From positions 186,001 through 250,000 of the forward strand of contig NZ_JAQNDM010000002.1 of NCBI RefSeq assembly GCF_028368975.1: 64,000 bases of DNA. Reading direction: 5' to 3'. Shown here in pieces: positions 14,638 to 19,227 of this stretch. The notes under the pieces were generated by a model. The model did no database searches. It had not been told where the DNA came from and was given only the letters and a program-made list of their open reading frames with translations. Position numbers and translations under genes: made by a program. Position 1 is the first letter of the stretch. Every line of letters starts with the position of its first letter. Source of the stretch: Stigmatella ashevillena. Its GTDB lineage: Bacteria > Myxococcota > Myxococcia > Myxococcales > Myxococcaceae.

Positions 14638-15249
14638 TCAGGCGTCCAGCTGGCCCTTGCCCTGGCGGAGAATCTCGATTGAGTCTCCGATGAGCGACAC
14701 CACGGTGGAGGGCTCCATCAACGTCACGCCCCCATCCAGGATGAGCTCCAACCCGTGTCCCAGCCGCTCCTTGATGTCCCGGGCGTCGATGAGCGGCTCG
14801 CCCTCCTCGTCACTGGCGGAGGTGGTGACGAGCGGCCGGCCGAGGCCCGCCGCGAGCGCGCGCGCCAGCGGAGCGTCCGGCACGCGGATGCCCACCTGCT
14901 TCTGCTTCGACATCATCATGTCCGGGACGATCCGCGTGGCCTCGAGGATGAAGGTGAAGGCCCCCGGCGTCAGTCCCTTCATGGTGCGGTAGGCGAAGTT
15001 GCTCACATGCGCGTACTTCGCCACGTCCGACAGGTCCGGACAGAGGATCGACAGCGGCTTCTTCTTGTCCCGGCCCTTGAGCTGGTACAGCCGCTCGATG
15101 GTCTTCTTCGCCGTCAAATCGCACCCCAGGCCGTAGTAGGTGTCCGTGGGATAGGCGACGAGCCCCCCGCGAGACAGCACCTCCACGGCCCGGCTCACGT
15201 GGCGGGGTTGGGGATTGTGGAGATCGACCTCGAGAATGGGTGCCGACAT
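14638..15249 (-). CDS. YrdC/Sua5/YciO-family protein (threonylcarbamoyl-AMP synthase type)
   Basis: A 203-residue protein of the YrdC superfamily. Signatures: 'YPTDTYYGLGCD' near residue 35, 'LKGRDKKKP' near 60, 'PGAFTFILEAT' and 'VGIRVPDAPLARAL'. Members make threonylcarbamoyl-AMP from threonine, bicarbonate and ATP for the t6A modification of tRNAs reading ANN codons. The short single-domain form and the R-D-K-K-K-P motif are closer to YciO than to TsaC, and YciO activity is weak or different, so the name is kept broad. ATG 15249 was chosen over the GTG one codon before because AGGAGG lies 6 bp upstream. It lies 33 bp after the antiporter gene. Confidence 0.85.
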   Translation of the reverse strand: MSAPILEVDLHNPQPRHVSRAVEVLSRGGLVAYPTDTYYGLGCDLTAKKTIERLYQLKGRDKKKPLSILCPDLSDVAKYAHVSNFAYRTMKGLTPGAFTFILEATRIVPDMMMSKQKQVGIRVPDAPLARALAAGLGRPLVTTSASDEEGEPLIDARDIKERLGHGLELILDGGVTLMEPSTVVSLIGDSIEILRQGKGQLDA

Positions 15250-15282
15250 CACATGCCTCCTGGGCTCCCGGAGATTACCTCC

Positions 15283-16581
15283 TTACGCTGTCCTGGGGCG
15301 CTCGTCTCCCCGTGTCTCGCCGCTGCGCTCCAGGGCGCGCCGGGTGAGCACCGGGCCTACCAGCTCGTGCGTGGTGATCATCGCCACGATGAGGACCTCC
15401 ACCTGGGGGCCGAAATCCGGGAAGGTGCGGGAGACCAGTGCCGCCAGCCCGAAGGTGACACCCGCCTGGGAGATGAGCCCCATCCACAGGTAGCGCCGCA
15501 GCCGGGGATCCTCGGCGGGCGCGAAGCGGCGGCAGGCCAGGAGGATGGCCACCGCGCGCAGCACCACGAGCAGCAGCGCCGCCGGGCCCACCGTCATCAG
15601 CGTGTCCAGCTTCAGCCCCGCCCCGGCCGCGGCGAAGAAGAGGGCGAACACCGGCAGGCCCGCGAACTGGATGGCATGGTGGATGTTCTGGCTCTGGCGC
15701 TCGTCCAGGTTGGCGATGAGCGCCCCGGCCGCCAGCGCCACCAGCAGGGGCGACAGGTGCAGCCGCGTCCCACCTTCCGCCGCCGCGAAGCAGATGCCCA
15801 CCAGGAACAGGGGCAGCTCTCGGTTCACCCGCCGCATGTACACGAGCATTCCCAGCGCCAGCACGGCCCCGACCCCCACCGAGCCGAACAGCTCCCAGCC
15901 CACCCCGCTCAGCAGCCCGCCCACGTCGAAGCCGCCCCCGAAGCTGGCGCGGGTGACGCCCGCGGCCAGCGCGAAGGCCACCATCACGAACAGGTCGCCG
16001 ATGATGACCAGCGCCATGAGGAACTCGGTGAAGGGGCCCCGCGCGGAGGTCTCCTGCACGATGGCGATCGTCACCGTGGGAGAGAAGGACACCACCACGG
16101 TGGACACCAGCGCGCTGACCGCCAGCGCCTGCGGCACCGTCATGGGCGTCAGGAAGGGCAGCACCGGCTTCAGGGCGAAGATCGCCGCGAAGCACACCCC
16201 GAAGGTGATGCCGCACACCGTGGCGCACAGCACGGCCACCTTGGCGCCCACCCGGCGGATGAGCCCCAGGTGCAGCTCCGTGCCGGCCACCAGCGCGATC
16301 AGGCTCACCGCCAGCCCCTTCACCAGTTCCAGCCCCTTCACGCCCTCGCCCGGGATGAAGCCCATGGCATAGGGCCCCACCGCCACCCCCACCAGCAGGT
16401 AGCCCGTCAGGCGCGGCAGCCCGACCCCCTTGGCCACCTTGCCGGCGAACAGCCCGCACAGCAGCAACGCCCCCGCGGCCAGCAGCACGGGCGTGCCCGA
16501 GTCCACGCGCCAGAGCTGGGCGCGGGAGATGCCCGCAAGGAGCATCACCAAGAGCGCCAGCCGGATGATGGCGCCGATCAT
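15283..16581 (-). CDS. Cation/proton antiporter (CPA superfamily), second of a pair
   Basis: A 432-residue membrane protein with about 12-13 hydrophobic segments in the Na+/H+ exchanger (PF00999-type) pattern. 'GLPRLTGYLLVGVAVGPYAM' marks the first family motif and 'SFSPTVTIAIVQE' the unwound helix. 'ALVIIGDLFVMV' is the TM5/6 acidic site, where one conserved aspartate remains but the preceding residue is Gly instead of Asp or Asn. The short charged C-terminus lacks TrkA-N or USP domains. The start ATG (16581) overlaps the stop of the first antiporter (ATGA), so translation is coupled and the two may assemble together. The transported ion (Na+, K+ or H+) cannot be told. Confidence 0.85.
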   Translation of the reverse strand: MIGAIIRLALLVMLLAGISRAQLWRVDSGTPVLLAAGALLLCGLFAGKVAKGVGLPRLTGYLLVGVAVGPYAMGFIPGEGVKGLELVKGLAVSLIALVAGTELHLGLIRRVGAKVAVLCATVCGITFGVCFAAIFALKPVLPFLTPMTVPQALAVSALVSTVVVSFSPTVTIAIVQETSARGPFTEFLMALVIIGDLFVMVAFALAAGVTRASFGGGFDVGGLLSGVGWELFGSVGVGAVLALGMLVYMRRVNRELPLFLVGICFAAAEGGTRLHLSPLLVALAAGALIANLDERQSQNIHHAIQFAGLPVFALFFAAAGAGLKLDTLMTVGPAALLLVVLRAVAILLACRRFAPAEDPRLRRYLWMGLISQAGVTFGLAALVSRTFPDFGPQVEVLIVAMITTHELVGPVLTRRALERSGETRGDERPRTA

Positions 16582-17780
16582 GCCGTGCCCTCGGGCGCCC
16601 TTCGGGGCGGCTCCAGCACCCGCCGGAAGGCGCGGCTGGCCAGCACTTCGTTGATGATCGCTCCCACCGCGACGATGTCGAAGACCTGCTGGGACAGCGT
16701 TCCGGGCACCAGCAGCAGGTACTCCGCCACCAGGCACAGCGCCAGGCCGCCCTGGGAGATGAGGGCGTAGCCCAGGCGGGGGGGCAGCTCCAGCATGTTC
16801 GCCGCATAGCGCCGCGCGAGGGCGCCGCCCAGAATCTTCCCCACGAAGCGCAACGTCACGTACCCCGGCAATAGGAGCCACGCATCCATGTCCTGGCCAT
16901 GGAGGTGACAGCCCACCAGGAACACCAGCACCAGGTACGCGGGCCGCTCGAAGCGGCCCAGGGCGCGCGCCACCTGCTCCACGGCCCGGCCCCCCACCAG
17001 CGCCAGCGTCGCCCCACACGCCACGCCCGCGAGCAGCGCGGACACGCGCAGGTAGGCCGCCGCGCCCCCCACCAGCGCCACGCCGCCCAGGGTGACGGCC
17101 ATCAGCTCCGCGGGATCCTTCAGCCCATACGTGAGGAAGGCGATCAGCGCGCCGCACATCATCCCCAGCAGCATCGCCAGGCTCACCAGCCCCAGCCCCT
17201 CCGCGGGGCTGGCCGAGGCGCTCAGCGCCAGCGCCAGCGCCAGCACGCCGAGCCCCACGCCGTCATCCAGGATGGTGAGCAGCGCCACCGCCAGCCCGCG
17301 CGAGCGCTCCATGCGTCCACTGCGGTAGCCCAGCACCGCGAAGTGTCCTGACGAGAGGCTGGCCGCCGCGCCCAGCAGCGCCGCGCCGCCCACCGCCGTG
17401 GCCAAGGGCAGCTCGCTGGTGAGCAGCAGCACGGCCGCCAGCGGCACCGACACGAACAGAAAGGCCACCCCGGCATGGGCCAGGGCGGCCGTGAACACCA
17501 CGCGCGGCAACAGCCGCAACAGCCGGGGATCCAGGTTCAACCCCAGGATGACGCCCACCGTCCCCAGGCCCAGCGCCACCACGGGCCGCAGGGATTCCAG
17601 ATCCTGGAGGGTGAGCACCCCGGTCTGTCCCGGCCCGAGCAAGGCCCCGAAGATCAGAAACAGCAGCCCACTGGCCGCCAGCTGCGCGACACCCGGCAGG
17701 CGCGCCGCGTCCAGCAACGTCCGGCTCGAAGCGAGCAGGGAGAGCGCCGCGATGGCGAGAAAGACGAGCAGCGCCTGCAC
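16578..17780 (-). CDS. Cation/proton antiporter (CPA superfamily), first of a pair
   Basis: A 400-residue membrane protein with about 12 hydrophobic segments. Family marks are 'LIFGALLGPGQTG', 'AASLSSGHFAVLGYRSGR' and 'ALLTILDDGVGLGVLAL'. Here the ion-binding site reads D-D, the form usual in electrogenic CPA2 antiporters, unlike the G-D of its partner. It starts with GTG at 17780, 33 bp after the small PII-like gene, and overlaps the next antiporter by 4 bp. No regulatory C-terminal domain is present, which fits regulation in trans by the small upstream protein. The assignment to CPA is firm; ion specificity is open. Confidence 0.82.
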   Translation of the reverse strand: MQALLVFLAIAALSLLASSRTLLDAARLPGVAQLAASGLLFLIFGALLGPGQTGVLTLQDLESLRPVVALGLGTVGVILGLNLDPRLLRLLPRVVFTAALAHAGVAFLFVSVPLAAVLLLTSELPLATAVGGAALLGAAASLSSGHFAVLGYRSGRMERSRGLAVALLTILDDGVGLGVLALALALSASASPAEGLGLVSLAMLLGMMCGALIAFLTYGLKDPAELMAVTLGGVALVGGAAAYLRVSALLAGVACGATLALVGGRAVEQVARALGRFERPAYLVLVFLVGCHLHGQDMDAWLLLPGYVTLRFVGKILGGALARRYAANMLELPPRLGYALISQGGLALCLVAEYLLLVPGTLSQQVFDIVAVGAIINEVLASRAFRRVLEPPRRAPEGTA

Positions 17781-17813
17781 GGATTCGTGCTTACACCGCC
17801 CGGGGGGGCGCCG

Positions 17814-18149
17814 TCACTCCCGCCGGAACAGGGGTGCGGAAACCACCGGGAGGGCGATCAGCCGGCCCATGGGCGGCTCATCCGCATCCATTTCCAGCTG
17901 CACGCGATTCACCAGCCGCTCAATCTCCTCGGCCGACTGCGGCAGCAGGCTTAGCAGGACGAGCCGGTCCTCGTCGGCGCCCAGCGCCAGACTGCGCAGC
18001 CCCGCGAAAACGGGCACCTCGGCGGACAGCGCGGCCGCGGCACTTCGGGCGCGCACCACCCAAGGCTCCGGGATGCCAAAGTCCCGGAGGCGGCGGATGG
18101 CCCGCTCGAGCTGCTCCACCTGTTCGAGCATCGTGATGAGGAGAAACAC
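17814..18149 (-). CDS. Small PII-like (ferredoxin-like fold) protein, antiporter-associated
   Basis: A 111-residue protein without recognised signature motifs. Its predicted order is strand ('MFLLITML'), helix ('EQVEQLERAIRRLRDFG'), strand ('EPWVVRA'), a variable loop, strand ('DRLVLLSLLP'), helix ('AEEIERLVNRVQLEM') and strand ('GRLIALPVV'). This betaalphabeta-betaalphabeta order and the length match PII-like or CutA-like trimeric proteins. PII-like proteins next to transporters usually bind nucleotides or metabolites and gate the transporter. The gene directly precedes two antiporter genes. The fold is inference from the reading of the sequence; the GTG start at 18149 follows AGGGG. Confidence 0.6.
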   Translation of the reverse strand: MFLLITMLEQVEQLERAIRRLRDFGIPEPWVVRARSAAAALSAEVPVFAGLRSLALGADEDRLVLLSLLPQSAEEIERLVNRVQLEMDADEPPMGRLIALPVVSAPLFRRE

Positions 18150-18185: not shown

Positions 18186-18638
18186 CTACTCGCGATGGGG
18201 TTCCTGCCCCTCGGTGGGGGGAGTCGGCACCGCGGGAGCGCTCGCGGGCTCCTGGGGCGCCGTGGGCTGCTGCTCGGGCTGAGCCATCGCCGCTCGGGCC
18301 GCGCGCTTGCCCTCTTCGATGAGCTTCTTCACCTTCTGCCCACCCTTGCGGCCGATCTCCTCGTAGAAGTTCGGCCCCCGCGTCGCCTTCACGCGATCGC
18401 CGCCCTTCTTGCCGATCTCCTCGTAGAACTTCGCGCCGCGCTCGGCCTTCACGGTCTCGCCGCCCTTGCGGCCGATCTCCTCGTAGAAGGAGCGGCCGCG
18501 CTCGGCTTTCACGGTCGCACCTCCCTTGCGGCCGATCGTCTCGTAGAACTCGCGGCCGCGCTCGTTGCGGACAGTCTCTCCGCCTTTTCGTCCCGCCTCG
18601 GCCACCGTCATGCTGCCCTTGTTGTCCTTGTCCGACAT
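18186..18638 (-). CDS. KGG-repeat general stress protein (GsiB-like)
   Basis: A 150-residue hydrophilic protein with five or so tandem units of about 20 residues of the form 'FYEEIGRKGGETVKAERG' (stress-induced acidophilic repeat, as in Bacillus GsiB and plant group-1 LEA proteins). The tail is Pro/Ala/Gln-rich. Such proteins are thought to protect against drying, salt or acid stress. ATG 18638 follows AGGAG at a good distance; the longer frame upstream is not coding-like. It lies 36 bp before the PII-like gene on the same strand. Together with the antiporters this suggests an ion/osmotic stress transcript, which is inference. Confidence 0.85.
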   Translation of the reverse strand: MSDKDNKGSMTVAEAGRKGGETVRNERGREFYETIGRKGGATVKAERGRSFYEEIGRKGGETVKAERGAKFYEEIGKKGGDRVKATRGPNFYEEIGRKGGQKVKKLIEEGKRAARAAMAQPEQQPTAPQEPASAPAVPTPPTEGQEPHRE

Positions 18639-19227
18639 TTTAGTCTCCTCTCGTTGCTGCCCGACGCCTCGCCACGATGCCCCGTGCCTCAAAGCTTGGG
18701 ATGGAAGCGCCCCAATGCAAGCAAGCTCCGTACTCCACCAGCCGTTCGCACCCGACAAAACCCATCACAACCCCAATGATTACGAGAGGTTGCCAAGCTA
18801 GCTGGGCATCCTGGCCGGGCTAATGCCTGCCCGGCAGGATGCTTTCATGTCCAAAACACACCAGCCCACGTTGCCGATTCCCCATTCGTGCACCCACCTT
18901 CAGCGCGCCACGCATGGCGCCCCAGGGGAAAGCAGCGACTGCCCAGGTCGAGCAGGCTCAAGGGGTGGCTTCGAGGACTAGCCCTGTTGGTCCGCTCTCT
19001 GGGAGGGCTGGCCCTGCTGCGCCTCCTTGGACCAGATGCGGTGGATCAGGAAAAGTTGCACGGCGGGATGGCGCCGCTGGGCCCGGCTGCCCCCTGGGCC
19101 TACATCCTGGCGTTGGGGAGCCGGCCCGTGACGTTGCTGCCCGGGCACGTACACTTTACCGCCGTGGACGGAACGCTCTTCAGCACCTGTGGGGGCACGC
19201 TCCTCGCTGGGGCACACCCTCCGTGCG
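18639..19227 (+). other. 589-bp gap with a long hairpin and no confident gene
   Basis: Between the KGG gene (start 18638) and the amidase gene (stop 19228) I see no convincing gene. A strong hairpin lies at 18806-18842: GCATCCTGGCCGGGC pairs with GCCCGGCAGGATGC apart from one bulged G, loop TAATGCCT, followed by TTTC on the plus strand. A 115-codon plus-strand frame (GTG 18888 to TGA 19235) has moderate G/C third positions and a hydrophobic stretch, but no recognisable family, no ribosome site, and it runs into the amidase gene. It could be a degraded gene. Confidence 0.4.

Follow-up and report, generated by a model that had tools for sequence, protein, structure and literature searches.

Three minus-strand genes of Stigmatella ashevillena, lying within the 64,000-nucleotide stretch of DNA analysed here (the window), encode a PII-like protein and two unequal antiporters of the CPA superfamily, called B and A in gene order. 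The linkage is conserved beyond the Myxococcaceae, the second antiporter of such pairs lacks, as a rule, the first ion-site aspartate and a lysine, and the A proteins form one clade. Its retention across distant bacteria points to an antiporter made up of one working and one altered subunit that would be under the control of a dedicated sensor. Our preferred reading, to which we give a probability of about 0.55, is that of a PII-regulated antiporter in which A would be the catalytic protomer and B a structural or regulatory one. Complex formation, the catalytic role of A, electroneutral transport, the direction of regulation and the ligand are inferred; the analysis itself shows the genes, their folds, the conserved linkage, the motif rule and the A clade.

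The three genes and their proteins

The first-pass annotation had described a 111-residue protein ahead of two CPA genes overlapping by 4 bp, with different ion sites (D-D and G-D) and no cytosolic regulatory domain in either antiporter. The open reading frames and the sequence bear out this layout (Table 1), the alignment columns confirm the difference between the ion sites, and the protein lengths and Pfam agree that both antiporters are devoid of any cytosolic domain, the Kef-type C-terminal RCK/TrkA domain included. The PII-like gene is separated from B by 33 bp. The three frames are kept as proteins in every complete Myxococcaceae locus examined; since they are conserved between genomes, chance open reading frames and misread starts are ruled out. 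The synteny throughout the Myxococcaceae also includes an upstream gene for a KGG/LEA_5-type stress protein (window 18186-18758) and a downstream Sua5/YrdC gene (window 14638-15252).

Table 1. Features of the PII-like/antiporter locus, in window positions
Feature	Position	Strand	Basis or remark
PII-like protein, 111 aa	17814..18149	-	start GTG 18149; ORF
CPA antiporter B, 400 aa, first gene of the pair	16578..17780	-	start GTG 17780
CPA antiporter A, 432 aa, second gene of the pair	15283..16581	-	start ATG 16581
ATGA overlap of B stop and A start, 4 bp	16578..16581	-	sequence
T-loop motif V45-P-V-F-A-G-L51 of the PII-like protein	17997..18017	-	domain-wide alignment
B-loop region P92-P-M-G-R96 of the PII-like protein	17862..17876	-	sequence and alignments; without canonical TGxxGDGK
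Ion site D172-D173 of antiporter B	17262..17267	-	sequence and alignment column
TM10 lysine K315 of antiporter B (NapA K305)	16836..16838	-	HMM alignment to NapA
Ion site G195-D196 of antiporter A	15994..15999	-	sequence and alignment

The AF2 model of the small protein, built from an alignment with its relatives (pLDDT 82.9), has a beta-alpha-beta-beta-alpha-beta topology, and the T-loop region between strands 2 and 3 is helical and of lower confidence. Nearly all of the top 50 Foldseek matches are PII or PII-like proteins (best E = 3.8e-3). The VIA-align comparison gives Z values around 8, but other ferredoxin-like folds tie with PII proteins, so the fold by itself is not PII-specific. Taken alone, the protein has a significant match in neither Pfam (PF00543 included) nor the PDB, and no member of its family was found in the PDB. 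A profile from 39 domain-wide sequences (A2) finds PII proteins of the PDB (E = 0.0011 and 0.0018), and distant family members match PF00543 (best E = 5e-4), a weak but consistent signal of PII homology. The earlier proposal that this protein is PII-like thus stands on the predicted topology, the Foldseek neighbours and the distant homology, and membership of the PII superfamily is supported by the modelled fold.

A canonical GlnB/GlnK identity was ruled out: the protein has no PF00543 match, contains no Tyr at all, and therefore not the uridylylated one (T-loop Tyr-51 of GlnB/GlnK), and instead of the B-loop TGxxGDGK the region reads EPPMGRL (family consensus PGxGI). Within the family, conservation is highest in the T-loop motif (V/I)P(I/V/L)FAGL; in the domain-wide alignment (n = 39), P46 is conserved in 36 sequences, F48 in 35, A49 in 29, G50 in 26 and L51 in 27. 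No PF00543 P-II protein was found anywhere in the complete 10.9 Mb genome, and 13 of 14 control genomes have one. A diadenylate cyclase is encoded in the genome, which leaves c-di-AMP a conceivable ligand, although nothing specifically points to it.

Antiporter A is recognised by Pfam (Na_H_Exchanger, E = 7.5e-21). Antiporter B goes unrecognised by Pfam, yet the structure modelled for it (pLDDT 89, pTM 0.88) resembles NapA (Z = 30.3) and then NhaP, KefC and NhaA; B consequently has the CPA fold, and the suggestion that it is no antiporter because Pfam missed it can be discarded. Both proteins are thereby placed in the CPA superfamily (NhaA-type fold, broken TM4/TM11), B by structure match and A by Pfam. 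The essential Asp (position 7) is kept in both, as D173 of B and D196 of A. The motif of the electrogenic CPA2 antiporters of the NapA type (D6, D7, K8) is complete in B (D172, D173, K315) but not in A, where G195 and I346 replace D6 and K8. According to Masrati et al. (PMC6181914), 94% of the CPAs conserve the essential Asp and 95% a basic residue in TM10, D6 and K8 are both linked to electrogenic transport, and CPA2 proteins without the first Asp are expected to be electroneutral. Since A lacks both residues tied to electrogenicity, its motif predicts an electroneutral exchange of one cation for one proton. The Myxococcaceae B, with D-D and Lys intact, may be a transporter too.

Gene neighbourhood, motif asymmetry and phylogeny

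The order PII-like, B, A is kept in all complete Myxococcaceae loci and in a distant myxococcal family, in which the small protein is 27-38% identical; a search for this gene order, which the first-pass annotation had proposed as a check, also recovered it in other phyla. The sample across bacteria comprises 93 PII-like loci with 53 family labels. A CPA gene lies within 2 kb of the PII-like gene in 63 of these loci, an EIIA-type PTS gene in 57 and both in 42; none of the tested partners is nearby in 14. Of the CPA open reading frames, 95 lie no more than 3 kb from the PII-like gene (524 kb) and 4 lie beyond that distance (445 kb), a density about 20-fold above that of the surrounding DNA. This linkage strongly suggests that the PII-like protein would gate the antiporters in trans. 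The EIIA identity (EIIA_2) was confirmed by Pfam in 7 loci, and EIIA and the PII-like protein are joined in a single protein at about a dozen loci, mostly directly beside a CPA gene.

These PTS_EIIA_2-PII-like fusions occur at L128-L131, L166, L170, L171, L178, L180, L181 and L184. Members of the PII-like family are also found beside the Mrp subunits MnhE/F/G (L109, L114, L136, L145), ClC channels (L111, L150, L157) and an SLC12-like cotransporter (L069), EIIA usually being present at such loci. At L119, L122 and L165, an EIIA-PII protein adjoins a large hybrid sensor histidine kinase (assigned by Pfam on the L119 protein only), with two D-D CPA antiporters upstream. A search of plasmids returned one relative; it comes from a plasmid of Clostridia, where one D-D antiporter adjoins it.

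A reciprocal search yielded six loci where B and A are neighbours and no PII-like gene is present, A without an adjacent B in several genomes (L210-L214), and A unlinked from B in others (L198-L201, L203/L204); two genomes of one family have A and B apart. An obligatory PII linkage is thus ruled out: the linkage is strong, the pair predates or extends beyond its association with PII, and A can probably homodimerise. About 16 family codes show both the gene order B-A and the split between A and B motifs, with and without PII. The lone A of L211 has its own TrkA_C domain, a single example that fits the idea of PII replacing a cis domain.

Among the 27 tandem CPA pairs downstream of a PII-like gene, the second antiporter lacks the first Asp and the Lys in 26, which have K, G, A, L or S at the first-Asp position; the essential Asp is always kept. 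CPA partners that occur singly, or as pairs located upstream of the PII gene, have D-D in 39 of 39 cases and Lys in 38. The B proteins of the downstream pairs have lost the essential Asp in 14 of 27 and kept the Lys in 21; B never has Glu at the alignment position of A residue E102, and in the B sets where Arg replaces the first Asp the Lys is gone as well. Because the A group of the motif alignments was selected by motif, its counts are in part a matter of definition, unlike the position-based count (26/27) and the tree. A rule by which A never has the first Asp was rejected, as one of the downstream pairs, L184, has the motifs DD/DD and falls with the lone-partner type.

The maximum-likelihood tree reconstructed without the motif columns recovers A as one clade (100/100) and B as one clade except for two members: the very divergent L132 and L169 fall elsewhere on long branches, and a strict single B clade is incompletely supported. 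When 28 further A and B proteins, identified solely by profile, are added, A is still one clade, and in this enlarged A set the first Asp is missing from 42 of 42 proteins and the Lys from 40 of 42. Some groupings, among them L070+L162 and L160+L161, appear in the subtree of A and again in that of B. At the level of sequence, the inequality of the two ion sites is a deep and systematic feature. Where Lys has replaced the first Asp in A, the alignment position of A residue S277 usually holds Asp or Glu (Asp in 12 of 15), which suggests a relocated salt bridge or a moved charge pair.

Proposed mechanism and alternative explanations

Under the preferred reading, the locus would encode a monovalent cation/proton antiporter system in which two CPA subunits of unequal make-up are accompanied by a PII-like regulator in the cytosol. 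A, with its G-D site, its lost TM10 lysine and its essential Asp, would be the catalytic subunit. B would be its divergent partner, most likely paired with it across the CPA dimer interface in what is probably an A/B heteromer, and would serve mainly as a structural or regulatory protomer, with D-D and Lys here and a degenerate site in many relatives. The PII-like protein would bind the cytosolic face, where its hydrophobic T-loop (VPVFAGL) would probably enter the cleft that separates the core domain from the dimer domain, as that of SbtB does in SbtA, and a small-molecule signal would make it switch transport. Elsewhere among bacteria, a phosphorylation input would come from an EIIA-Ntr-like protein, which in some cases is fused to PII. 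There are precedents for both inputs: the T-loop of SbtB sits in the inter-domain cleft of SbtA (PMC8352866), and unphosphorylated PtsN binds and inhibits the antiporter YcgO (PMC11808508). The first-pass annotation had suggested a heteromeric antiporter gated in trans by a nucleotide-binding trimer. Our results support this in part: gating in trans agrees with the linkage, a heteromer is probable, and a nucleotide-binding trimer is a conjecture for a protein that has neither the canonical PII ligand motif nor the uridylylated Tyr.

Several points count against this reading. CPA antiporters are dimers and PII proteins are trimers, so that their symmetries do not match, and a review describes control by PII as apparently confined to transporters that are trimers (PMC10710835). 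In addition, A occurs without B, D-D and Lys are intact in the Myxococcaceae B, the canonical PII ligand residues are absent, and 14 of the 93 loci have none of the tested partners. A stronger version is tentative and, in our judgement, somewhat improbable: A and B would constitute an ancient, obligate heterodimeric class of CPAs in which A transports, B is a pseudo-antiporter and a PII-like/EIIA sensor pair gates. If true, it would provide a dimeric transporter under a three-fold symmetric regulator and a route to the loss of electrogenicity by the joint loss of D6 and K8.

Alternatively, A and B could be independent homodimers of different stoichiometries (B electrogenic, A electroneutral), co-expressed and with one or each of them regulated by PII. 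The intact D-D-K of the Myxococcaceae B would agree with this, as would the genomes in which A stands alone (with TrkA_C at L211) and those in which A and B are unlinked within one family. Nevertheless, the B proteins of many relatives have lost an Asp conserved in 94% of the CPAs (PMC6181914) and are still kept beside A, as would scarcely be expected of a transporter that works independently, and the recurrence of the same groups in both subtrees also speaks against it; we consider this explanation unlikely. An explanation that we find improbable is that PII has a single target, either A or B, and that the other antiporter is a passenger gene held by the operon organisation; the many PII-like loci with one D-D-K CPA can be cited in its favor, but the B-A order and motif split of about 16 family codes persist with and without PII. 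Finally, the PII-like protein could be a sensor of the same ion-homeostasis regulon with other targets, the antiporters being ungated. The Mrp, ClC and SLC12-like neighbours and the 14 loci without tested partners might be read in this way, yet what the neighbours share is a role in ion transport, and CPA genes are about 20 times denser near the PII-like gene than in the DNA around, and we regard this last explanation as very improbable.

Relation to known systems

Transporters controlled by PII-like proteins are already known, and so are CPA antiporters, but no published description of a PII-like protein combined with a systematically unequal CPA pair was found in the open literature searched. 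To our knowledge, the transporters so far characterised as partners of PII are trimeric or of the ABC type, and the CPA antiporters of known structure are homodimers. In SbtA-SbtB, as here, an operon-encoded PII-like protein adjoins a two-domain secondary transporter with crossed unwound helices and the T-loop is proposed to act as a plug; contrary to the locus studied here, SbtA is a trimeric Na+/HCO3- symporter encoded by one gene, and our PII-like protein has no C-terminal redox loop. GlnK-AmtB likewise links a PII-family protein to a membrane transporter gene, but GlnK has PF00543, the uridylylated Tyr and TGxxGDGK, all missing here, and AmtB is trimeric and unrelated to the CPA antiporters. 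NapA and the other CPA2 D-D-K antiporters share the fold of B and its D172-D173-K315, but NapA is a homodimer, and here A, without the first Asp and Lys, is paired with B. KefB/KefC with KefG/KefF also combine a CPA2 antiporter with a separate small regulatory protein; KefC, however, has its own cytosolic domain, is kept silent by glutathione and has KefF/KefG rather than PII as partners (PMC11808508 and, in part, general knowledge).

The partnership of a PII-like protein, often with EIIA, with CPA, Mrp, ClC and SLC12-like transporters would imply a general, nucleotide- or phosphorylation-based control of monovalent ion and pH balance, and the natural A/B motif split offers a ready test of the determinants of antiporter electrogenicity. 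PtsN (EIIA-Ntr) and the K+/H+ antiporter YcgO/CvrA resemble these loci in that an EIIA-type protein controls a CPA antiporter, and many relatives have EIIA genes beside their PII-CPA pairs; but that system has no PII-like protein, YcgO is a CPA1 with its own cytosolic domain, and EIIA is absent from the window locus, as from the other Myxococcaceae loci. EIIA genes are present elsewhere in the same genome. There, another CPA antiporter (L197, G000:C2:7143056-7146065) of 729 aa, with D-D-K and Usp domains, lies directly beside a gene that joins a helix-turn-helix to an EIIA domain.
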